Source: a virus. Taken from it: a stretch of 64,000 nt of DNA. Shown piece after piece: positions 8,804 to 26,561 of this stretch. The notes below the pieces were generated by a model, which was given only the letters and a program-made list of their open reading frames with translations, made no database searches and was not told the origin of the DNA. Both the position numbers and the translations under genes were made by a program. The stretch is from the IMG/VR virus record IMGVR_UViG_3300035698_019240, positions 1 through 64,000 of that record. One strand, given 5' to 3'. Every line of letters begins with the position of its first letter. Within the stretch, counting starts at the first letter, position 1.

Positions 8804-9814
8804 CTATCCCGCTACCGTTGCGTTTGATGTACCGAAAGTAGCAGGCACCGTAGCTATCCATAACCTTATTGTACTGGAACTTATATATTCTATATCAGCA
8901 GGCATTACTCTCATACTTGTACTATCTCTATAGAGTTCAACAACCGGATAATTCCACGGCCAAGTTGCATTCTCAGTATTTACTAAATCAGTTGAATAAG
9001 GACCTGTACCACTCCAACCACTTGTAGCTATACTAAACGATTCTCTATAAGGTCTTGTATACATCATGTTATTACTAACTACTTTATCTTTAACTGTGTC
9101 TGTATCAGTCTCGTCAACTTCTGTAATACCATGAGGATTACTTGTAGTGGTTATTGAATCTTTATGATCTTCCCAACCTTTAGCCAATAAGTTATTTAAT
9201 AATTTATTGTATGTTGCATCTGTATCAATCTCATCAACATCTGTTAAATCATGAGGATCACCAGTTGCATGGGTAAGGTCTTTATGGTCTTCCCAACCTT
9301 TAGCTAAATTATTACTTACAACCTTATTTAATGCTATTGTTGTGTCAGTTTCATCAACCTCTGTTATATCATGAGGAGTACTGGTTAATATAGACTCGTC
9401 TGCATGATCATTCCATTTTTTAGCAAGAAGGTTACTAAGCATTTTATTTTTTGTAGAGTCCGTACTAGTCTCATCAACCTCTGCTAACGCTACAAACACA
9501 TCTATATAATCTATTTGACCTGATGTTATACCTGTTTTATACCATGCCAGTTTAAATTTTTGTGTATTACCGTAACCAGACGTTTCATCTGTATCACCTA
9601 CCCAAAATTCAAAAAATCCATCAAGTCCTGTAAGTATAATATCTGATTCTGTTCCTCCATCTGCAACCGGATAAGTCTTAAATGCAGTTCCACCTGACTC
9701 ACTTGGATATAACCAAACAGCTTCGGTTAATGCTGCTTTATATACATATATTGAAGCGTTTGTAATTGGTTCACCTACTTCATTCACTAAATATTGCCAA
9801 TAGTGTTTCCTCAT
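8804..9814 (-). CDS. Baseplate/fibre protein with four ~45-residue repeats
   Basis: 336 residues. The N-terminus (YLVNEVGEPITNASIYVY) looks like a beta-sandwich of the carboxypeptidase-regulatory or fibre-anchor type often found at phage baseplates. Residues ~110-250 are four repeats of VDETDT...NKVVSNNLAKGWEDHKD...PH.ITE. The C-terminal 80 residues are beta-rich (RESFSIATSGWSGTGPYST). It lies between the tail-protein-I-like gene and the fibres, so it may connect fibres to the wedge. Confidence 0.7.
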   Translation of the reverse strand: MRKHYWQYLVNEVGEPITNASIYVYKAALTEAVWLYPSESGGTAFKTYPVADGGTESDIILTGLDGFFEFWVGDTDETSGYGNTQKFKLAWYKTGITSGQIDYIDVFVALAEVDETSTDSTKNKMLSNLLAKKWNDHADESILTSTPHDITEVDETDTTIALNKVVSNNLAKGWEDHKDLTHATGDPHDLTDVDEIDTDATYNKLLNNLLAKGWEDHKDSITTTSNPHGITEVDETDTDTVKDKVVSNNMMYTRPYRESFSIATSGWSGTGPYSTDLVNTENATWPWNYPVVELYRDSTSMRVMPADIEYISSSTIRLWIATVPATFGTSNATVAG

Positions 9815-9844
9815 ATTATCTCCTTCTCTCTTTCAATCTTTTCT

Positions 9845-12700
9845 TTATGTTCTTTTCTCTATCTTAAAATGAACTTTTAAATCCACAATTCTAGGTTTAT
9901 GTAAATTAGTCATTCTTGTATAGAATATTAAATAATCACTACTATTAAATATACCAAACTCTCTTATATCTTCTATAGGTTTATTAATATAATCCCAACT
10001 AATATAATAAAAATCTTTATCTTCTGCATATTCTAAATCTGTACCACTTGCAAACATACTTTGTAAAGATTTTGAATCTGGTAAAAATGTTGGATCATAT
10101 GTATTATCTGTACCATTTCCCATTTGCCAGTAGCCATTATTATATATATCTTCCATTATAAGTGAGTCATTTAAACCACCTGATACTTCTTTTAAAACAA
10201 CCCATCCTGATATTGCACTATTAAAAACCGCTACTAACTTCCTGGTATTTATAATTGTAACACTTTCAGGTATTATTAAATTATCTGAACTATCAAAGAA
10301 TTGTACAACAACACCTTCAACACCAAAATTATGTTGTATTGTCCATATATTAGAAGCAACTACTTGATCATAATTATAATCATTATCAACTATTATTGTT
10401 CTACCTATTACAGTACTATCCCATATGGCATTTACATTATTATTATTCATATTTTGTATAGATGGCACTATTTTTTCATAATTATCATCAAAATGTTGTG
10501 ATATTATTTCTTTTTTATTGAGAGTATGTGTTATATCCCAACTGGCCGAAGGTGTTAATGTATCTGTACCTTGGTCTACTGATGTAATGTATGCCTCACC
10601 AGCCACACCAGAATCAAATATAATTTTTATTGACTCATTGTTTATAATCTCTATAGTATTTGGTTCTATTTGTTCACTGTTTTCATTAAAACATTGTACT
10701 ATTAAATCTTTGGTACTAAGATCATGATATATATTCCATTCATCTTTAAAAGATTTTTGTAAATGTACGGTTGTTTCAACAGCAGCAGAAGCTGCTGATG
10801 TTACTGTTGATTCTGTAAATTCTGCAAATTCAGCTGTAAATTTTGTAACTAATGAATTTTGATGTGCATCTGTTGATCTCCATGTACCTGAAAAATCAAC
10901 TATTGGTGATATCACATAATTATAATGCGCATATCTTGATACAGGTTGTAATATTTCCCATTCAGCAAGTAATGCATTCATCATATCTTCACTCATTATT
11001 TCAGTATCTAACATAGGCTCATATGATAAATCAAGTTCTAATCTATAGTGAGGTGATAAAATCATACCACTTGGTCCATAAGTAGGTAATGGATATTCCA
11101 TAGATTTTTGTGTAGGTGTTTCTGTTATCAAAGCGTATCCACTTTGATTTGGTGAAAATGATGCTGATACATCAAGTGAAGTTGTTGCACTTGTACTAAC
11201 AGTATATGTTACACCAGAAGTTGCCATTTCTGTATGTGTTAAATCAAAGAATTGTACAATCGGTCTATTAATATCAGTACTACAATTTATGCTCCATGAA
11301 CTATCAGAAGATGGATGATAATGTAACCAATCTACATTATCATCATCTGTGCTGCCTGATACAGCATCACTCCAAGCTATATCTTGAGTACCGCCAGGCC
11401 ATACATTAGTAACATAATAATCAACTTTATTACTTAAATTGGTGTAATCAAAAAGACTTCTTTTCATTGTATATGATTCACCTGCTATGTAACCATTAAA
11501 TGTTAACACACTTACTAAGTTAGTAATATTACTAACATCTGGATAAATTCTATTACCAATATTATCATATACTTGTGTTATTAAATTAGTTGTTTCCATA
11601 TTATGATATATTGTCCATGGATTTTGCTGATATCTTTCTAAGTGATAAGGATTAGGATGTTTACCAAAAGACATATTATAATACTCACTACCTGCATAAC
11701 CTGTACCACTTACACCATAATTTAATGTATATAATAAATCCGTAAAATCATCTGTAGGATCACCTGATACACTTGGTGAATGCCATCTTTCATAAACATT
11801 TAATGGATTTAATGAGTAACCAAATAATACATTCCAAGGAATATATAATGCTGTATATGTTCCTTTTCTTTTTAGTAGTGATACAAGACTCTCAACCCAA
11901 TCTCTTTGAGACCTCTCACCTGTTGTTAAGTTGGAACTCATCTTATACATATTCGCTAAATATTCAAGATATACAATATCAATTTCTTTTGGATCAATAA
12001 GAGTATTAATATTTTTCATTTTATTATATATCTGTTGGTTTACTTGATCAAAATATACTTTAAGCCATTCAGTCATTCCATCTGTTCTATTATGTTCTGG
12101 TAAAGCAGATAATGTCCAATCTTTCATACCATTAAATTCAATATGATAATCATTAGGTTCGCCTATTTTATATATTTTACCGAAGTATATCCATTTTTTA
12201 TCTTGATTGACAAAAGGTTTATATAGCGGTTCTGTTGCTAACCATGTATGGAACGGACTACCTTTTCTAAAATATACCTCATCACCATTATTAAATACAC
12301 TTGTGGCGTCTGAATGAACAGATATTACATCTCCTTTCACAAAATTGAAAAAATTACCATTTATATGATTTTGGTTTGGAAATGGTACAAACTGATGTCC
12401 TATATATCCTACATCTTCTGTTTTTACATAAAGATCGTTCCAATAACCTGTCGCCACAATACACATCTCAGCGCCTCTTAAATACGATCTATATCCTAAT
12501 ACTTTAGTAGTAGTGTCCCAATAATTTGGAGTTGTCCATTCTATTCCATTTCTATTATGATAAAAATAGAAAAGATTTGTGGCTATAGTATTAATTTCTG
12601 GTAGTGTTAAATTTTCACCTATTTCTATTAAAGCACTACTAACTACAGAATTAAAATAATCTTCAAGTAAAAAATATGAACTATCACTAAAACGGCCCAT
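9845..12700 (-). CDS. Baseplate wedge protein, tail-protein-I/gp7-like
   Basis: 951 residues. Residues ~200-290 show the tail protein I pattern (DPKEIDIVYLEYLANMYKMSS, then RDWVESLVSLLKRKGTYTAL), which bridges wedge and fibres in P2- and T4-type baseplates. Five copies of a ~60-residue beta module follow (W.I.H.....LI.QFFD....I.P....I.N.......F.....G.....), at about residues 365, 465, 680, 735 and 790. These modules are typical of phage fibre-binding proteins. Its ATG shares one base with the stop of the upstream homing endonuclease gene. Confidence 0.8.
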   Translation of the reverse strand: MGRFSDSSYFLLEDYFNSVVSSALIEIGENLTLPEINTIATNLFYFYHNRNGIEWTTPNYWDTTTKVLGYRSYLRGAEMCIVATGYWNDLYVKTEDVGYIGHQFVPFPNQNHINGNFFNFVKGDVISVHSDATSVFNNGDEVYFRKGSPFHTWLATEPLYKPFVNQDKKWIYFGKIYKIGEPNDYHIEFNGMKDWTLSALPEHNRTDGMTEWLKVYFDQVNQQIYNKMKNINTLIDPKEIDIVYLEYLANMYKMSSNLTTGERSQRDWVESLVSLLKRKGTYTALYIPWNVLFGYSLNPLNVYERWHSPSVSGDPTDDFTDLLYTLNYGVSGTGYAGSEYYNMSFGKHPNPYHLERYQQNPWTIYHNMETTNLITQVYDNIGNRIYPDVSNITNLVSVLTFNGYIAGESYTMKRSLFDYTNLSNKVDYYVTNVWPGGTQDIAWSDAVSGSTDDDNVDWLHYHPSSDSSWSINCSTDINRPIVQFFDLTHTEMATSGVTYTVSTSATTSLDVSASFSPNQSGYALITETPTQKSMEYPLPTYGPSGMILSPHYRLELDLSYEPMLDTEIMSEDMMNALLAEWEILQPVSRYAHYNYVISPIVDFSGTWRSTDAHQNSLVTKFTAEFAEFTESTVTSAASAAVETTVHLQKSFKDEWNIYHDLSTKDLIVQCFNENSEQIEPNTIEIINNESIKIIFDSGVAGEAYITSVDQGTDTLTPSASWDITHTLNKKEIISQHFDDNYEKIVPSIQNMNNNNVNAIWDSTVIGRTIIVDNDYNYDQVVASNIWTIQHNFGVEGVVVQFFDSSDNLIIPESVTIINTRKLVAVFNSAISGWVVLKEVSGGLNDSLIMEDIYNNGYWQMGNGTDNTYDPTFLPDSKSLQSMFASGTDLEYAEDKDFYYISWDYINKPIEDIREFGIFNSSDYLIFYTRMTNLHKPRIVDLKVHFKIEKRT

Positions 12701-13578
12701 TATATTGTCTCTCTTATAAAAGAATGAATATTATTAACACATTCTTTTTTATTATTAATCCAGTCTTGTTCTTCTATTATCATCAAATTAATTCCTTTAT
12801 CTTCACACTGTATTATCTTCTGTTCATCTTTATATTTCATGTAATTACTACTATGCCAATATGTACCATTAAATTCTATAGCTTTATCCAATGCTGGAAT
12901 ATAAACATCCAATTCTAAATTCTTACCAGTCTTAGGGTTTATTATCTGTGTTCTATCATTTTCCATTACTAACTTATTAGTAAATGACTTTACTATCTCT
13001 AATACTTCTTTCTCTGGTTTTGAATGTGATGTTTCTTCCCAACATTCAGGACATCGTTGACCGATTTGAAAATTGTTCCAACGCATTTTAAATTTATGAC
13101 CTTTTGGACATTGTATTTTTAATTTTATGTGATTATTTTCGTATTCATTACTCAATAGTTTGTAACTTTCCTTTTCAATTTGTCCTTTTACATATTCATG
13201 TGTTAGTTTTTTCTTTCCAAAACACACAAAACATCCCTTGTTAAGTCGTAAATTGGTAAAAGACATTTTAAATTTATGACCTTTTGAACATTGTAATTCT
13301 AATTTTGAACCGCAACTATTATATGTTTTACTCAATAACTTATGTCCATAATTTTCAACAACCTGTTTTACATATTCATACGAATATTTATATGTGCCGA
13401 AACATTTAGGACACCCATGACCTTGTTGAAAATTATTCCAAGTCATTTTAAATATATGTCCTTTAGAGCATTGTAACTCCAATTTCGATATACTATTTTT
13501 ATACTCATCACTTTTCAATTTATATCTTGTATTTTCTATATGTTTCTTTACATAATCATATGAGATTATTTTACCCAT
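12700..13578 (-). CDS. Vsr/PD-(D/E)xK-type free-standing homing endonuclease
   Basis: 292 residues. Three ~60-residue zinc-ribbon-like repeats (CSKGHIFKMTWNNF..GHGCPKC; C-x-KGH and CP-x-C) occupy residues 1-180. The end is a nuclease domain with LELDVYIPALDKAIEFNG (D224, E235) and H242. This arrangement is known from the EDxHD homing endonucleases related to very-short-patch repair enzymes. It is wedged between two baseplate genes and overlaps each neighbour by one base (TAATG), which suggests precise insertion that kept translational coupling. Confidence 0.8.
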   Translation of the reverse strand: MGKIISYDYVKKHIENTRYKLKSDEYKNSISKLELQCSKGHIFKMTWNNFQQGHGCPKCFGTYKYSYEYVKQVVENYGHKLLSKTYNSCGSKLELQCSKGHKFKMSFTNLRLNKGCFVCFGKKKLTHEYVKGQIEKESYKLLSNEYENNHIKLKIQCPKGHKFKMRWNNFQIGQRCPECWEETSHSKPEKEVLEIVKSFTNKLVMENDRTQIINPKTGKNLELDVYIPALDKAIEFNGTYWHSSNYMKYKDEQKIIQCEDKGINLMIIEEQDWINNKKECVNNIHSFIRETI

Positions 13579-17862: not shown

Positions 17863-18858
17863 TTATAGCCGTGTAAACGCTCTTTTACCTTTTATAACAT
17901 CATAAATCTTATCATGATCTATAGAATAATCAAAATCATCCTTCTCAAATTTCTTCTCACCTTTTATATCAACATTATGAATTATTAATAACTCATCAAT
18001 AGTATTTGACGCTTGTAATAATTTCAAACCTGAAGGAGCCCATAGTCCAGACCCACCCCAAAATTCTGCTTTACTTATAGCATGTGTGCCTACAGCGTTA
18101 GCGGCTATGACCCACATTTGATTTCTTGCAGCTGTACCATCCATAAGCATATTCCATAAATCACCATAATAGTTATTAGTAGAAACACCCATACCTGGAT
18201 AATCACGCTTTGAACTACCTCTCCATGATGCCAACTGTATAACTCCATCAACTTTATCAATTTGTGACATTTCATGAAATGATTGAGAAAAACAAAAATC
18301 ATAACATGTACTAAACCCAAACTTACCCCATTTTGTATCTATAATTAAAATATCTGTTTTACCTGAAACTGTATAATCATTCTCTATACCAGGTAGAAAT
18401 GTTTTATCATATATCCATTTAGGATTTTTGTAGTCCAACTTTTTATTGATAATATATGTTGAGTTAAGGTATTTTTTTGTTTTACCTTTTCTTATATTAT
18501 TAAAGATTATGAACTGTAAATCATCATCTAGTTGAGATTCTAATGAATCTTCTACCCAATCCCAATGATTGTCTATAACCGCTTGATCCATATAAGGCCA
18601 ACATGCCTTTTCATCTTCCCAGAAATAACCGGCTAAACAAAATTCAGGAAATAGAATCATGTTGATACCCTTATTTTTAAAGATTTCTACTGCTCTTTCT
18701 ATCTTATCTTTATTAGCGTCAATGTCTGGTACTGTAGCATGTATGTTAGCAATACCTATTGATAATCCTTTCTCATCATCACTAAATTTTCTCTCAACAA
18801 TACTAAAACCATCTTCATTGATGGCCTCTGTTTCATTTATGTAATTTTTAAATTTCAT
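17863..18858 (-). CDS. Nitrilase-superfamily (C-N) hydrolase with capsid-targeting-like N-terminus
   Basis: 331 residues. The carbon-nitrogen hydrolase triad is visible: E72 (LFPEFCLAGY), K152 (YDKTFLPG) and C185 (STCYDFCF), plus a second Glu-containing loop downstream. The family hydrolyses amides or nitriles, often releasing ammonia; the substrate here is unknown. The first 9 residues, MKFKNYINE, look like a T4 internal-protein targeting peptide with an I-N-E cleavage site. That would place a metabolic amidase in the capsid and then in the host. The gene sits between hub genes gp27-like and gp5-like with 1-13 nt gaps, so it is expressed with late structural genes. Confidence 0.85.
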   Translation of the reverse strand: MKFKNYINETEAINEDGFSIVERKFSDDEKGLSIGIANIHATVPDIDANKDKIERAVEIFKNKGINMILFPEFCLAGYFWEDEKACWPYMDQAVIDNHWDWVEDSLESQLDDDLQFIIFNNIRKGKTKKYLNSTYIINKKLDYKNPKWIYDKTFLPGIENDYTVSGKTDILIIDTKWGKFGFSTCYDFCFSQSFHEMSQIDKVDGVIQLASWRGSSKRDYPGMGVSTNNYYGDLWNMLMDGTAARNQMWVIAANAVGTHAISKAEFWGGSGLWAPSGLKLLQASNTIDELLIIHNVDIKGEKKFEKDDFDYSIDHDKIYDVIKGKRAFTRL

Positions 18859-20133: not shown

Positions 20134-20982
20134 TTAAATTTCCTTATCCTTATCACATCTCATTTCATGATACCCACAACCGGGTATTTTGTGTATTTTC
20201 TTATGGCAATTCTTACAAACCGTGATACACATATCAACATCGGCAGATTGTAAAGGATCCCATCTTATTCCTTCTCTATGGTGACAATGTAAATTACCAC
20301 CTCTTGTATTACATTTCACACAGGTCCAATTATCACGCTCAAAGACCATTTGTCTTAGTTCAGGTTGGGTCTCACGGTTCAATTCAGATAAATCTAATCT
20401 CCCAGCTCTTAAAGCATCTTCTTTTATCAAAGATGTGGATTTTTTATTAAATACAGGACATTCTGTTTTACAACCATCAGAACAATAAAGTCTACATTCT
20501 CTACCTATATCCTTGTTTATAGCTCTTATTCTATTTTCTATGCTTGTTCTTTTAGATATATGCCATTTACCACAATAAGTACATTTAACTTCCATGATAA
20601 TAGGATCTTCCTCATTTCTTCTAACTTTTTCACACCATTCAATTTGATGTGCATAAGTATCATATAAAGGAATACCATCTTTCGTAACTCCACCTTTCCA
20701 TCTTCCATTATTTTTACCATGATTATTCGTATTAATTCTCATTGACCTTTTTGATTCCTCTGTATGTTTTCTACCATACATACCATTCTTTTCACCTGTA
20801 AAAGATTTTGTATTACTACACCCTACACTACACACATCTGTTTTTCTATATTTATTACATAAAAAATCGTCTCCACATATAATACATTTTCCTCCATGAA
20901 TTTGAAGATTCCATGAGCCTTCTTTTTTCCAATAGTTTTTATAGTATTTCCATCCATTTTCAATAGCTACATTTATTTTCAT
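20134..20982 (-). CDS. HNH homing endonuclease with NUMOD3 motif
   Basis: 282 residues. Zinc-ribbon start (CIICGDDFLC), NUMOD3 (GMYGRKHTEESKRSM, residues ~68-82), a second Cys cluster (CTYCGKW, LYCSDGCKTECPVF) and a C-terminal HNH (RDNWTCVKCNTRGGNLHCHHREG, NCHKKIH). It belongs to the same family as the genes at 33.2, 34.0 and 36.1 kb. Inserted upstream of the hub gene without disturbing it; free-standing intron-less homing element is the best reading. Confidence 0.85.
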   Translation of the reverse strand: MKINVAIENGWKYYKNYWKKEGSWNLQIHGGKCIICGDDFLCNKYRKTDVCSVGCSNTKSFTGEKNGMYGRKHTEESKRSMRINTNNHGKNNGRWKGGVTKDGIPLYDTYAHQIEWCEKVRRNEEDPIIMEVKCTYCGKWHISKRTSIENRIRAINKDIGRECRLYCSDGCKTECPVFNKKSTSLIKEDALRAGRLDLSELNRETQPELRQMVFERDNWTCVKCNTRGGNLHCHHREGIRWDPLQSADVDMCITVCKNCHKKIHKIPGCGYHEMRCDKDKEI

Positions 20983-21052: not shown

Positions 21053-21433
21053 TTATAGACTACTTATTGATTCCATATCGCGTAGTAGAGCATATAAATA
21101 TTCTTCTCTGAGATACTTTATAAAATCACCATCATTTAATTCTTCAAAAGGATTTACAACCTCATTCATTAAAGTAATAATCCACCACAAGAATGGTGTA
21201 CCATAAACATTATATGATATATTATCCCACCACTCATCATTACCTACTTCGTAAGTATTGTAGAAAGTGGCATCATTAACTATATCGTCATTAGTATTAA
21301 AAGACCTAAAAATATTCATGAATTTTGTACCGTCATGATCTTTTAGTATATTGAATAATTTTATAAAACTAGCATTGTTTAATTTTTTACCAGTTTCTTC
21401 ATAATAGCTTGTATTTGTTCTTGTTACAGTCAT
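21053..21433 (-). CDS. Baseplate wedge protein, T4 gp53-like
   Basis: 126 residues. NDEWWDNISYNVYGTPFLWWIITLMNEVVNPFEEL carries the W..IS...YG...LWWII...N....PFE pattern of gp53, the wedge protein next to gp25. It is the first gene after a strong terminator, so it needs its own promoter or late read-through. It marks the right edge of the left structural cluster. Confidence 0.85.
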   Translation of the reverse strand: MTVTRTNTSYYEETGKKLNNASFIKLFNILKDHDGTKFMNIFRSFNTNDDIVNDATFYNTYEVGNDEWWDNISYNVYGTPFLWWIITLMNEVVNPFEELNDGDFIKYLREEYLYALLRDMESISSL

Positions 21434-21448: not shown

Positions 21449-21500
21449 TAAAAAAGTCTCAAAGGTATTTCACTTATAAGTGAGAAGCCCTTGAGACTTT
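21449..21500 (-). terminator. Rho-independent terminator
   Basis: AAGTCTCAAAGG pairs with CCCTTGAGACTT around an inner TCACTTATAAGTGA palindrome, followed on the minus strand by TTTTTT. It ends the small-gene block coming from the right and separates it from the baseplate genes. Confidence 0.85.
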
Positions 21501-21640
21501 AAAAAATTGTCCATTAGTTTGTAACTAAAGTGCGACTATTAATATTTATGTTGGAGTGTATGAATATATTTTATTATTTCCAAAATTTCTTGTATATATT
21601 AATATCTAAAATGTAATATTCCTTATAACCAAACCATATC

Positions 21641-22456
21641 TTATCCTTTCACCATTCCTTCCAAATTATTCATTAACTCATCAGTACTGTAAGTGTTTTC
21701 AATTTTTACCATTACTGATTTACCATCAGTCCATACTTCCCGCTCATCTCTAGGAAGTGGCTTACCAGCTGTTACTAACTTTATACCATTTTTATTAGGA
21801 TCAAAATCTTTGTTAAGAGTACTAACAGTATTACCGTCATAATTTTTTAACCATTTTACTGTAGAAGTCATATAATCCTCTGTAACTCGATCAATATTCC
21901 CTCTTTTTTCTACATATTCATCAAATTTTTTCATAGCAATCTTTAGTGTTTTCCAATCTTTATCTATACCTATACTATCTGGAGAATCATCATGCTTATC
22001 AAGAACATCTGCAAGCACATAATCAAAATTCTTGTTAAATACTCTTAAACTTCCAATCTCTTTGAAAGAAAACCATATATCTTCTTTAGATGCCACAGCT
22101 ATTTTAGATCCATCATACGGAAACACAGCGTAACCTATACCATGACCCGATGTTCTGCCTTGAAATGTTGTACATATAAGTGATCTACCTCTTTTTGGAA
22201 ATTTCTTCCAACTTGGTAAGTTATCCATTAAGAGTGTATAATGATTTGATGTGTTTGCTGATTCTCGTGGACTACCAGATTTAGGATCCACTAATAGGGC
22301 TTCTTTATTATTATTAATACCTCTATATATTCTTGCTGTATCTTTATGATATGCTTTAGCTGCCTTCATACACTTATTCTTTATAATATCATAAGCTTCA
22401 TCAAGTTCTATTTTTTTACTTCTGCCTTCTGTTAGTAGATATGATTCTAATCTCAT
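21641..22456 (-). CDS. ADP-ribosyltransferase-like protein, probably packaged
   Basis: 271 residues. Features consistent with an R-S-E class mono-ADP-ribosyltransferase: IYRG (residues 43-46) for the first Arg, RGRSLICTTFQ for the S-T-S-like strand, and RDEREVWTDG near the end for the E-x-E motif. The conserved-looking SPRESANTSNHYTLLMDNLP lies between. The N-terminus MRLESYLLTE resembles a capsid-targeting peptide with an L-T-E cleavage site. T4 Alt is the known precedent for an injected ART acting on RNA polymerase. The fold assignment is from motifs only. It overlaps the asparaginase-like gene by 4 nt. Confidence 0.6.
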   Translation of the reverse strand: MRLESYLLTEGRSKKIELDEAYDIIKNKCMKAAKAYHKDTARIYRGINNNKEALLVDPKSGSPRESANTSNHYTLLMDNLPSWKKFPKRGRSLICTTFQGRTSGHGIGYAVFPYDGSKIAVASKEDIWFSFKEIGSLRVFNKNFDYVLADVLDKHDDSPDSIGIDKDWKTLKIAMKKFDEYVEKRGNIDRVTEDYMTSTVKWLKNYDGNTVSTLNKDFDPNKNGIKLVTAGKPLPRDEREVWTDGKSVMVKIENTYSTDELMNNLEGMVKG

Positions 22457-22947
22457 CTGCTATATTTTCCTATGTCAAATAATTTACCGTTTGTCTTGAG
22501 AAAGTCATTACCAGGGAATACCTGCCCATGCATAACGGCATATACACCGTAAGGTAAACTCTGTACGGCATGTAATGCGTAGCCTATATTTATACATGTT
22601 TCTATTTTATTATCAATGTACGGAACCATTGATCCTGTTATTACTATTGTTTTGTCGCACTTGAGTGACACTAAGTTCCTTGCTGTGAAGTGCATTTTGT
22701 CCGTACCATGTGTTACGATTATTCTGTCACTCTCTAAACTTAGTACCTTACGAGCTACAGTGTCTCTATCAGCTTCACTCATGACAAGGCTATCCTTACT
22801 CATCAATTTGTGTATCTCATATTTCACATCTGTATGTTTCAATATATCTTCAATTACAGGTAAACCTACATGTAAAGGTGTTATTTTATCTAATGTACCG
22901 CCACATGTAATTATACTTATTATAGGGTCTTCTTTAAATTTTTTCAT
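22453..22947 (-). CDS. Single-domain L-asparaginase-like protein
   Basis: 164 residues covering only the N-terminal catalytic domain of type I/II asparaginases. TCGGTLDK (nucleophile Thr18), MSKDSLVMSEADR, VTHGTDKMHFTA (D83) and ITGSMVP are present; the C-terminal domain is missing. Full enzymes hydrolyse Asn to Asp and ammonia using residues of two domains, so activity or substrate may differ. It sits between the two ART-like genes and overlaps both, so it should be co-translated with them. Confidence 0.8.
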   Translation of the reverse strand: MKKFKEDPIISIITCGGTLDKITPLHVGLPVIEDILKHTDVKYEIHKLMSKDSLVMSEADRDTVARKVLSLESDRIIVTHGTDKMHFTARNLVSLKCDKTIVITGSMVPYIDNKIETCINIGYALHAVQSLPYGVYAVMHGQVFPGNDFLKTNGKLFDIGKYSR

Positions 22948-23548
22948 TAAAACACCTCTTTAAAGTAACTTCATATTTTCTATCTATAATATAATACCTG
23001 TTCACATCAAACATAATTTCATTTCCTGACATTGCAGCATCGTTTAATCTTTTAGATTTATATAGTTTAACTGTTTCTTTGGCCCAATTTTCAAGGCCTT
23101 CTTCTTTTGAACCTTCATAGTTATGAGTATAATTGGACTTGAAATCATCCAAATAACTATGAGTATAAAAATCTTTTATTTTAGGAGACCATATATATCT
23201 ATATTTACCTATTGGAAAGAAAAGATGTGGTATACCGTAAACTGTTGAGGTTCTACTATTACCTGTTGCAAAAACTCCTTGAGTTCTTGGCTTCCAACCA
23301 AATTTACTATTAAATGTATTATCAATCTCTCTAGTTACATCTTCTGGTGTATCAGTAGGTTTCCTATCCTTTCGTCTTTTTTTATTTTGAATACCATCAT
23401 GATCATTTGTCATTCTGGTACCTCTGTACAAAAATTTTGATGATACTGGAAATTCTTTTAGAAAAGGTTTACATTCTCTCCTTATTTTAACAACTATATA
23501 CTTAACAGCATCTTCAAAATCTTCATTTATGTAAGTTTCTAATCTCAT
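22934..23548 (-). CDS. Second ADP-ribosyltransferase-like protein with targeting-like N-terminus
   Basis: 204 residues. FLYRGTR (residues 39-45), GVFATGNSRTSTVYG and SGNEIMFD line up with the Arg, S-T-S and Glu motifs of the R-S-E transferases. The start MRLETYINE nearly copies the start of the 271-residue ART-like protein and that of the nitrilase homologue, with I-N-E as probable cleavage site. The rest is diverged, so this may be a different target specificity. It overlaps the upstream 72-codon gene by 4 nt. Confidence 0.55.
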   Translation of the reverse strand: MRLETYINEDFEDAVKYIVVKIRRECKPFLKEFPVSSKFLYRGTRMTNDHDGIQNKKRRKDRKPTDTPEDVTREIDNTFNSKFGWKPRTQGVFATGNSRTSTVYGIPHLFFPIGKYRYIWSPKIKDFYTHSYLDDFKSNYTHNYEGSKEEGLENWAKETVKLYKSKRLNDAAMSGNEIMFDVNRYYIIDRKYEVTLKRCFNEKI

Positions 23549-23763
23549 TCAATCTCCCACATACCATCCCATGACTTCTTATATTTTCTTTTCTTTATGA
23601 TATCTTCAAGTTTTTCTATATCACTTCCTACTACTTGTGGATACAGTGAACCTATCATTGTATTTATAAGGTATTCTCTTAACCTTATTTGTTCCTTTAT
23701 TTCTTCGTCTGATAATTTGTTACAATCATTCACATTCACATACAAAGTATTATTCACAATCAC
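23545..23763 (-). CDS. Unknown small protein
   Basis: 72 residues, not recognised. Helical middle (SDEEIKEQIRLREYLINTMIG) and a Trp-containing basic end (KKRKYKKSWDGMWEIE). Coupled by 4-nt overlaps to both neighbours. Confidence 0.65.
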   Translation of the reverse strand: MIVNNTLYVNVNDCNKLSDEEIKEQIRLREYLINTMIGSLYPQVVGSDIEKLEDIIKKRKYKKSWDGMWEIE

Positions 23764-23960
23764 TCTCCACCTACATATTCAAAATCGTGTTTCTTTAAAT
23801 AGGCTTTCAATTCTTTTTCATCTTTAAAATGTTCGTCTTTTTCAACACCATATGTATAATATTCTTCACCTCTTAATTCTACAAATAGTATCTCTCCATC
23901 CTCATTGATCCATTCTGATTCTTCAATCATAGTTTTCACATAATTATTAAATCTACTCAT
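23760..23960 (-). CDS. Small acidic protein
   Basis: 66 residues from the ATG at 23960, chosen because it shares an A with the upstream stop (TAATG); another in-frame ATG lies 9 nt upstream. MSRFNNYVKTMIEESEWINEDGE has a weak likeness to the targeting peptides nearby (WINE), followed by a compact alpha/beta segment (ELRGEEYYTYGVEKDEHF). Function unknown. Confidence 0.6.
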   Translation of the reverse strand: MSRFNNYVKTMIEESEWINEDGEILFVELRGEEYYTYGVEKDEHFKDEKELKAYLKKHDFEYVGGE

Positions 23961-24076
23961 TATTTCCATATCCTCTTAGCCAGATTATCAGGCAAACTTC
24001 GCCAACACCATAATATATAACACGCGATACTTCCTACAACCAATTGTAGGAAGAATATTGCCAGTTCTTCAAACAT
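23960..24076 (-). CDS. 38-residue single-span membrane protein
   Basis: ATG at 24076 follows GGAGGATAAGG. MFEELAIFFLQLVVGSIACYILWCW is a membrane segment followed by a basic tail. Stop and next start share an A. The leader at 24095-24111 has an AGTAGT/ACTACT stem. Confidence 0.7.
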   Translation of the reverse strand: MFEELAIFFLQLVVGSIACYILWCWRSLPDNLAKRIWK

Positions 24077-24928: not shown

Positions 24929-25413
24929 ATTATTTTCCTTTCTATTATTGCTACCGTATCATGTATTGCTCCACCGTGACTCAAGAGTAACACTTCCTCT
25001 TGTTCAAAACCACGGGTCTTACCCATACTCACGGAGTGGTAGCCAAAGGTTATTACTATACCATCTTTAACTAATAAATCACTAAGGTTATTTTTCACAG
25101 CATTGAATGTACTCATTGTACGGCCACCGTACATCTCCATACTCTTTCTATATGAGTATGGGGGATCAAGTAACACTGTTTCAAATACTACATTATCTTT
25201 AAACAATTCAACTAATTGTAGACCATCCTCATGGTAATCTGATGGCGACTCTGGATCACTATCATTTCTTATTTCATTAACCCCTTCTAACTCAGTAATA
25301 CCTGCAAACAGGTTTAATGTTAAACCTTCACAACGACTTTCAACCCATTCCCGTATCCTTCTATTTCTAAAAGTGTATTTATACAGTGGTGTCTTCATGT
25401 ATGTAAATTTCAT
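24925..25413 (-). CDS. DPPY-type methyltransferase-like protein
   Basis: 162 residues. LTLNLFAGITELEGVNEI resembles a SAM-binding motif I (FAG, residues 36-38) and VLLDPPYSYR (83-89) is the catalytic motif of amino-methyltransferases acting on N6-adenine or related groups. The short length means no target-recognition domain. It could modify DNA, rRNA or a protein. It lies at the downstream end of the tailed-protein operon and lacks the tail. Confidence 0.7.
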   Translation of the reverse strand: MKFTYMKTPLYKYTFRNRRIREWVESRCEGLTLNLFAGITELEGVNEIRNDSDPESPSDYHEDGLQLVELFKDNVVFETVLLDPPYSYRKSMEMYGGRTMSTFNAVKNNLSDLLVKDGIVITFGYHSVSMGKTRGFEQEEVLLLSHGGAIHDTVAIIERKII

Positions 25414-25709
25414 ATCTCTATCTCCTTAAATAGTTCATCTACATCTATAATAGGTTTATCTTCTATCCAATTTTTATTACAAGCCCATGTATATCCTGAA
25501 ATTTTATCATATATCGCAAAATGATAAGTGGCACTATCATTATTATTGTAATATTTGTCTATAGTAAACTCTTTACCGAATATATGAAACATTTCACTGT
25601 CAATATAACTTTTATTTGCATGAAATCCTCCACATTTATCCTTTAGTATTTTAAATTCTTCTCTCATCTTATCCAGAGTTTTGAATTTTACCTTATCTCC
25701 TACTTTCAT
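25410..25709 (-). CDS. Tailed small protein, MF..FG body
   Basis: 99 residues. Body: KVGDKVKFKTLDKMREEFKI, GGFHANKSYID, EMFHIFGKEFTIDKYY and WACNKNWIED; tail [13 protein letters not shown]. Same body type as the proteins at 27209, 27871 and 28385. Body function is unknown. It ends in ATGA shared with the methyltransferase-like gene. Confidence 0.8.
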   Translation of the reverse strand: MKVGDKVKFKTLDKMREEFKILKDKCGGFHANKSYIDSEMFHIFGKEFTIDKYYNNNDSATYHFAIYDKISGYTWACNKNWIEDKPIIDVDELFKEIEI

Positions 25710-25951
25710 ATATCTATATCCTCAAACAATTCATTAACATTCATAATAAGATCATCCACCATAAACAAATCATTAAATGAGTAATTGTTTTCTTGTCCAT
25801 TATCCCATTCTATACTTATCCAGTCCTTAAAACCTTCTGTGTGATTTTTTACTGTACCCACTACCTTTGATTTGCTATACCAAGGATTAGATGGACGATT
25901 AAAATATCGATCATCTATAAGTCCTACTCTGTCTCCTATCTTAAATTTCAT
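25706..25951 (-). CDS. Tailed small protein, SH3-like body
   Basis: 81 residues. KIGDRVGLIDDRYFNRPSNPWYSKSKVVGTV and WDNGQENNYSFNDLFMV resemble the Mib/HERC2-type SH3 fold (G-x-x-V near the start, WD.G..N.Y..DL at the end). Tail is slightly divergent, IMNVNELFEDIDI. Confidence 0.8.
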   Translation of the reverse strand: MKFKIGDRVGLIDDRYFNRPSNPWYSKSKVVGTVKNHTEGFKDWISIEWDNGQENNYSFNDLFMVDDLIMNVNELFEDIDI

Positions 25952-26172
25952 ATATCTATATCCTTAAATAGATCATCAACATCAAGTAACATTGAATCCT
26001 TACACTCTTTATAAGTATGTTCACCACCAAATAGTGAACTAGTATTTTCACAATTCCATTCACATGAACGATTTGTTTTAATATGAGGCACTTTATGAAA
26101 ACATCCCACTACTGTACAATAATCATATGCACTACATATAACTTTATTCTTATACATTATAACACTTTTCAC
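25948..26172 (-). CDS. Tailed small protein, Cys/His body
   Basis: 74 residues from a GTG at 26172; homologues suggest the ATG five codons later (MYKNKVICSAYDYC). C-x(5)-C-x(4)-C-F-H-K-V-P-H and CEWNC suggest a small zinc module. Tail LLDVDDLFKDIDI. A TTTACA/TATAAT promoter overlaps its 5' end, so it may also need read-through from upstream. Confidence 0.75.
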   Translation of the reverse strand: MKSVIMYKNKVICSAYDYCTVVGCFHKVPHIKTNRSCEWNCENTSSLFGGEHTYKECKDSMLLDVDDLFKDIDI

Positions 26173-26184
26173 GCATATTGTAAA
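26156..26184 (-). promoter_or_regulatory. Sigma70-like early promoter inside the tailed-gene array
   Basis: -35 TTTACA at 26184-26179, 17-bp spacer, -10 TATAAT at 26161-26156, with the same GTGTTATAATG context as at 63310 and 32434. It overlaps the start of the downstream gene, so it probably serves the genes to its left. Confidence 0.6.
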
Positions 26185-26187
26185 TTT

Positions 26188-26328
26188 TTATTTAATTCCC
26201 CATGTGACGAATTTTTCTGCCAATCTTTCTGCTAATTTCATATATTTTAATAAAATCAATGTCATAACTATTACCCATACAGGTGCCAAACATGTGTAAA
26301 ATATAATATTTTTAATTCCTTTTCTCAT
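26188..26328 (-). CDS. 46-residue membrane protein within the tailed array
   Basis: ATG at 26328 overlaps the upstream stop as ATGA. IFYTCLAPVWVIVMTLILLKY is a single membrane span with a basic N-terminus (MRKGIK), then a short helix (KLAERLAEKFVTW). It has no shared tail, the only such member in the middle of this run. Confidence 0.7.
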   Translation of the reverse strand: MRKGIKNIIFYTCLAPVWVIVMTLILLKYMKLAERLAEKFVTWGIK

Positions 26329-26561
26329 ATATCTATCTCCTCAAATAGTTCATCTACATCAATAATAGGATCCTCATCTACTATAAATAATTGATGAGGT
26401 TCGTAATTGTTTTCTTGTCCATTATCCCATTCTACACTTACCCAATCCCATTTTGATAATAAAGTACCTATAATTCCAGTCTTACTATACCATGGATTAG
26501 CGGCTCTGTTAGTGTAAATATCATCATATAGACCTACCCTATCACCTACTTTAAATTTCAT
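26325..26561 (-). CDS. Tailed small protein, SH3-like body
   Basis: 78 residues: KVGDRVGLYDDIYTNRAANPWYSKTGIIGTL, WVSVEWDNGQENNYEPHQLF, tail IIDVDELFEEIDI. Close paralogue of the protein at 25706 (NPWYSK, WDNGQENNY shared). Confidence 0.8.
   Translation of the reverse strand: MKFKVGDRVGLYDDIYTNRAANPWYSKTGIIGTLLSKWDWVSVEWDNGQENNYEPHQLFIVDEDPIIDVDELFEEIDI

Follow-up and report, generated by a model that had tools for sequence, protein, structure and literature searches.

The first 64 kb of the 92,055-base IMG/VR virus record IMGVR_UViG_3300035698_019240 (64,000 nucleotides, referred to as the window; contig-wide counts take in the whole record) carries two related genes on the minus strand, one on either side of an asparaginase-like gene. 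Their products, named A (271 amino acids, 21641-22456) and B (204 amino acids, 22934-23548), are proposed to be paralogous effectors resembling mono-ADP-ribosyltransferases, packaged in the phage head and injected into the host. Taken as one joint claim, this reading is favoured with moderate confidence. Packaging and injection of A and B appear very probable from their N-termini, and an ADP-ribosyltransferase (ART) fold with nicotinamide adenine dinucleotide (NAD) chemistry appears likely from conserved residues. In the proposed mechanism, a short N-terminal leader would dock A and B on the scaffold core while the head assembles, and a gp21-type protease would then cut after [LI]-x-E, at LLTE in A and at INE in B. 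Once matured, the enzymes would be packed together with the DNA and reach the next host by ejection. There, at the start of infection, they may use NAD as the donor to attach ADP-ribose, or a related group of NAD type, to host macromolecules, in the manner of T4 Alt.

The two open reading frames (ORFs) that the initial annotation had placed around the asparaginase were both confirmed as members of an overlapping gene run. A, of subfamily A, matches phrog_12810 (E 3.4e-37); B, of subfamily B, matches phrog_11975 (E 2.9e-34). phrog_11975 is matched by both proteins, and the remaining good PHROG matches of either are likewise without known function. The hhalign comparison of A with B gave E values from 1.1e-17 to 2.9e-24. 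Judged from their sequences, A and B are ancient paralogues in a phage family without assigned function, with relatives in Agrobacterium phage Atu_ph07, Salicola phage SCTP-2 and uncultured huge phages. A conserved-motif alignment search (closer subset A5) led to 57 viral loci, and iterated hidden Markov models collected 239 ORFs in 66 loci, a redundant count that includes some overlapping contigs. Same-strand runs of at least two family genes were present in 39 loci, reaching 11 genes in Atu_ph07, and the A/B pair is one instance of these large family arrays. In the tree, the A and B subfamilies were fully split (support 100/99), and copies from one phage mostly grouped together, about one change per site apart. 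Such expansion and divergence within each phage suggests a different target per copy and arms-race selection. No cellular relatives were found among 84,980 species genomes (GTDB contigs) at the sensitivity of a pattern search. Foldseek of the B model against the BFVD viral models gave 27 matches at E<=0.001; those that bear a name are phage proteins, either uncharacterised or with a tentative name.

The leader is the best-supported part of what had been noted for these genes. A begins with MRLESYLLTE (22427-22456, minus strand), with a gp21-type site, LTE, at residues 8-10; B begins with MRLETYINE (23522-23548, minus strand), with INE at residues 7-9. In the AlphaFold model of A, mean confidence was 47 over residues 1-10 and at least 88 for the next blocks. 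The source is a phage of jumbo type that resembles T4. Its genes for baseplate, sheath, tube, neck and terminase lie inside the window, and those for portal, S77 prohead protease, scaffold and the Gp23 capsid protein lie beyond it, at 66-72 kb of the contig (Pfam E values: S77 protease 1.2e-27, Gp23 1.7e-103, Portal_T4 1.5e-97, T4_CASP 2.7e-7). The contig that encodes A and B also encodes a T4 gp21-type prohead protease. For packaging in T4, the N-terminal 10 residues of IPIII are enough (PMC9026906), and Alt, whose start was read here as MELITE, is cleaved by gp21 after ITE-6 (PMC5694885).

The frequency of such starts was compared between N-termini and internal methionines. The loose pattern [RK]..[LI]xE occurred at 7 of 102 N-termini in the contig and at 6 of 525 internal methionines. 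Among non-family genes of the related loci, the leader pattern matched at 84/852 N-termini versus 93/3577 internal methionines (p 3e-18), and the rate fell from 17.9% for genes less than 1 kb from a family member to 5.9% at 3-9 kb. The strict T4-type pattern was found at 27 of 1036 N-termini in related loci and at none of 4795 internal methionines. Strict-pattern leaders of relatives, MITFKQFITEES and MKTFKQYIQEAS, were compared with T4 IPIII, MKTYQEFIAEAS; their likeness is seen in MITFKQFITEE of relatives versus MKTYQEFIAEA of IPIII. Unrelated leader-bearing neighbours in the related loci included zeta/AAA_33 kinases, amidoligases and a C39-like peptidase.

The Atu_ph07 array allowed this reading to be compared with virion data. 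It consists of 11 direct homologues in tandem, coding sequences (CDS) 53-63 (AUZ94865-AUZ94875), when AUZ94813 is counted as CDS 1; the numbering was checked via gp70, the helicase/primase. These genes are 'hypothetical' in the record, and the genome paper assigns them no function (PMC6102473). The array is homologous to A and B and both have a leader (MRWxQLxE in Atu_ph07), whereas the Atu_ph07 array is longer and includes GNAT-ART, ART-ART and ART-zeta fusions. The fusions were seen at L002:2188-3276, 9464-10936 and 10960-13296 (GNAT-like plus ART-like, with a weak GNAT match; two ART-like; ART-like plus zeta kinase). The array lies within CDS 31-76, and mass spectrometry of Atu_ph07 virions detected 29 proteins of CDS 31-76, a count for the cluster and not for CDS 53-63 themselves (PMC6102473). 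This cluster-level scope of the virion support counts on the side against packaging.

It is improbable, in our estimate, that the leader is something other than a head-packaging signal and that the proteins act only inside the cell or are attached elsewhere in the virion. Genes for baseplate and tail do surround the gene run (gp53 at 21053-21433), the Atu_ph07 proteomics does not tell head from tail, and only 89 of 184 predicted array N-termini fit the leader pattern. On the other hand, many of the non-fitting starts are probably mis-called, for example the L002 rows, and the leader of relatives is near-identical in form to the capsid-targeting sequence (CTS) of T4 IPIII, with [LI]xE sites. 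A gp21-type protease is present, the leader stands on unrelated folds, and the strict pattern is absent from internal methionines. Packaging of A and B in this phage is therefore what we infer. The earlier suggestion of injection through a targeting-like start is strongly supported by the T4-type leader, the prohead protease, the tagging of unrelated enzymes and the position of the Atu_ph07 array in a virion cluster.

The residues that point to an ART were all located where the initial annotation had described them, in both proteins. In A, the putative NAD-binding Arg45 (22322-22324, minus strand; YRG, residues 44-46) was Arg in 87 of 92 aligned sequences and Lys in 5. The Ser/Thr strand of A, SLICTT at residues 92-97 (22166-22183, minus strand; model strand 93-96), keeps S92 in 99/103, and position 97 is T or S in 82/103. 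The putative catalytic Glu240 of A (21737-21739, minus strand; EREVW, 238-242) was Glu in 104/104. In B, Arg42 (23423-23425, minus strand; YRG, 41-43) was conserved in 22/22 sequences of the first alignment and 47/57 of the broad one, and Glu177 (23018-23020, minus strand; NEIMF, 176-180) in 22/22 and 60/61. The near-invariance of the YRG and Glu motifs in the broad alignments indicates that they are not due to chance. The Ser/Thr segments read ICTT (94-97) in A and FATG (93-96) in B; A keeps S92 and [TS]96-T97 well, and the pattern of B, F-x-[TS]-[GS], is looser.

AlphaFold models of A (predicted local distance difference test score, pLDDT, 83; predicted template modelling score, pTM, 0.83) and B (pLDDT 85.6, pTM 0.82) showed the same order of elements: the YRG strand (44-47 in A, 41-44 in B), the Ser/Thr strand, a helix, two strands, helices and a strand pair or hairpin with the late Glu. 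The late strand of A (240-243) contains E240, and that of B (178-181) directly follows E177. This strand and helix order is the one expected of the ART topology. The A profile, compared with the ART profile of T4 Alt, outscored 100 of 100 shuffles with YRG aligned on YRG, and local profile matches landed in register on YRG or on the Ser/Thr-helix-strand segment.

Several results weigh against an ART or are neutral. Foldseek of the A and B models against the PDB gave no ART among the significant matches, and the BFVD matches showed only the same family and no ART. The Foldseek comparison of AlphaFold models with ART folds, put forward in the initial annotation, thus failed to bring up a PDB ART above noise. 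Pfam, PHROGs and PDB sequence profiles returned nothing significant carrying an ART name. For the A profile against T4 Mod, 10 of 100 shuffles scored as well, and the B profile against T4 Mod and Alt stayed inside the shuffle range. The position two residues before the late Glu varies (D, N, E, Y, K, H or G in A; also variable in B). Mono-ARTs of the R-S-E clade that have been characterised (T4 and toxin type) carry [QE]-x-E; A itself reads E-R-E, though [QE]-x-E is not conserved across the family, and an arginine-specific ART activity on proteins is therefore not to be taken for granted. As a positive control, the true pair T4 Alt-Mod was compared by the same hhalign method and gave E 0.004, no better than these matches. 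The profile test therefore has low power and a missing match is uninformative.

Some candidate matches were rejected. Arr-2, at rank 25 of the PDB Foldseek list for B, was taken as noise. A sub-threshold Pfam DRAT match of one relative (E 0.0025) was not in register with the motifs. Profile A3 matched a botulinum-like chain (E 0.006) over the N-terminal part only; this weak match disappeared with a deeper profile and was ascribed to chance. The first hhalign null for B (0/40) looked strong and was dropped after a better null and deeper profiles, and a global alignment of B, in which Arg42 and Glu177 were each matched to a ModA residue, was not reproduced using a deeper profile.

These data were also weighed against a protein that is packaged and injected without being an ART. 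Its fold, enzymatic or binding, would be restricted to phages, and the conserved Arg/Arg/Ser/Asp/Glu residues would serve a different chemistry. This would agree with the failure of Foldseek to match a solved fold, with the T4 ART profile comparisons, most of which were below significance, and with invariant residues outside R-S-E (R64, R89 and D126 in A; R62, R88 and D126 in B). The motif and secondary-structure order nevertheless follow the R-S-E ARTs, the local profile matches are in register, and the T4 Alt-Mod pair is equally weak by the same method; we regard a non-ART fold as possible but rather unlikely. A further alternative keeps the ART fold and makes it an NAD glycohydrolase or a modifier of RNA or DNA, for example countering or triggering NAD-based defence, instead of a protein mono-ART. 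The variable residue two before the Glu, unlike the [QE]xE of arginine and asparagine ARTs, would suit such an activity, and passages of two surveys describe NAD-centred conflict systems as frequent in jumbo phages (PMC7824862, PMC9503650). Many diversified copies per genome would rather suggest target diversification than one shared NADase activity, and this alternative is considered unlikely. The ART fold, the NAD chemistry and the host targets of A and B are thus what we infer from partial agreement: the ART identity claimed earlier fits the R-[ST]-E residues as well as the strand and helix order, Foldseek against the PDB gave no ART above noise, and the profile matches to T4 Alt/Mod are weak.

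The gene between A and B (22453-22947, minus strand, 164 amino acids; Pfam Asparaginase E 2.7e-18) carries the GGT and HGTD catalytic motifs of the N-terminal asparaginase domain, and its best PDB matches were single-domain asparaginases of 185 residues (E 2.3e-21). By likeness to these solved enzymes, its product (ASPARAGINASE) looks like a complete single-domain asparaginase. It overlaps B by 14 nucleotides (22934-22947) and A by 4 nucleotides (22453-22456). Upstream, a small ORF (23545-23763, minus strand) overlaps B by 4 nucleotides, and the first gene of the run (23760-23969, minus strand, 69 amino acids) overlaps that ORF by 4 nucleotides. These overlaps make a five-gene chain from 23969 down to 21641, placed among baseplate and tail genes. 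This overlapping order is what speaks for a specific ART-asparaginase-ART host-takeover cassette, as had been proposed. The asparaginase, however, starts without a leader; no relative was found among ORFs of the related loci, in the neighbour sets examined or in the viral contigs searched, and phage records gave host-type matches only. The functional cassette is therefore unsupported and very improbable, and the asparaginase is probably a separate, incidental gene in the same run.

At about 21455-21510, between A and gp53, an inverted repeat (AGTCTCAAGG/CCTTTGAGACT) precedes a stretch of T on the minus strand. It is a possible terminator of the gene run; the scan did not report it. The T4 late promoter TATAAATA was observed 20 times versus 17 expected and was uninformative, as was a sigma-70 promoter scan.

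Other genes of the contig share the leader. A carbon-nitrogen hydrolase of the nitrilase superfamily (17863-18858, minus strand; PF00795 E 7.6e-19, residues 41-297) starts with MKFKNYINE among baseplate genes and is a further candidate for an injected enzyme. Beyond the window, the leader scan found a HAD-like protein with MRLKNYINE (contig 82088-82762, plus strand) and a 187-residue protein with a leader-like start, MRLKEYIKD (contig 83690-84253, plus strand). A 213-residue membrane-type protein with MRLEEYLNE and a hydrophobic stretch lies near probable prohead core genes (contig 74921-75562, minus strand). In related loci, Amidoligase_2 genes with leader-like starts stand beside the arrays (L045:3091-4173, L045:4170-5825, L058:3462-4790, L096:12358-13905). 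A recurrent P-loop kinase, GIFKAVFMAGxPGSGKS, occurs near ART-like genes, mostly behind a leader-like start (L039, L041, L047, L053, L055, L058, L065, L068, L075, L076, L079, L082, L083, L085). At L094:3439-3861, the leader MRLFDLFEN is followed by MYHVTSxxNVxxIxxxGI, which resembles a KptA/ART-type opening and has no Pfam match. Elsewhere in the window, HNH/NUMOD3 homing-type endonuclease ORFs lie between baseplate genes (20134-20982 and 12700-13578, minus strand), and a series of unannotated short paralogous ORFs, MKFKxGDRVGLxDDxY..., occupies 25410-26561 (minus strand).

The more general result is that T4-like jumbo phages have a set of leader-tagged enzymes that are candidates for injection, of which the phage-specific ART-like family is the largest component. 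We lean towards the view that in these phages one short, genome-specific leader serves as a modular address tag on an unrelated enzyme arsenal clustered in islands (ART-like arrays, zeta-like kinases, amidoligases, C39 peptidase, nitrilase, HAD and GNAT fusions). If so, the effectors that an uncultured phage injects could be read from its N-termini, and the ART-like arrays would be the largest part of this set, diversifying per phage like an effector repertoire. The cargo that large phages inject alongside DNA is mostly unknown, and a sequence-readable leader yields a testable list of candidates. Because the leader is tied to the T4 packaging and processing route, it predicts mature N-termini after [LI]-x-E for virion proteomics. 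With as many as 11 diverged copies of one enzyme-like family, the arrays suggest diversification of host targets in the first minutes of infection. Jumbo-phage ARTs, as treated in passages of PMC7824862 and PMC9503650, and the T4 CTS were already known separately; our literature search found no paper joining a capsid-type leader, an injected-enzyme set and the ART-like family.

The surveys of jumbo-phage and polyvalent-protein ARTs by Iyer and Aravind (PMC7824862, PMC9503650) resemble the present case, in the passages concerned, in predicting co-injection with DNA and in finding ARTs frequent in jumbo myoviruses; there, delivery was inferred from fusion or neighbourhood and not from a targeting leader. 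None of the present loci or accessions is mentioned in those main-text passages. T4 Alt, the head-packaged and injected ADP-ribosyltransferase of RNA polymerase, shares a short gp21-cut leader ending in [LI]-x-E (MELITE; PMC5694885), the order YRG/YRS ... STS ... E, a late Glu in NEMEV (NEIMF in B) and T4-type head genes. In contrast, Alt has 682 residues, one ART domain and a conserved ExE, whereas the A/B family consists of single-domain proteins of 204-271 residues in multi-copy arrays, with ExE not conserved and sequence similarity to Alt not significant. ModA and ModB of T4 are likewise adjacent paralogues of similar size, with L[YW]RG, an S[FA][TS] strand, a helix, a strand and a late E[WV]M, but they have no capsid leader, are made after infection and gave mostly non-significant profile comparisons. 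The internal proteins IPI, IPII and IPIII of T4 have a similar leader; they are small basic proteins without enzyme motifs, whereas here the leader heads several enzyme folds.
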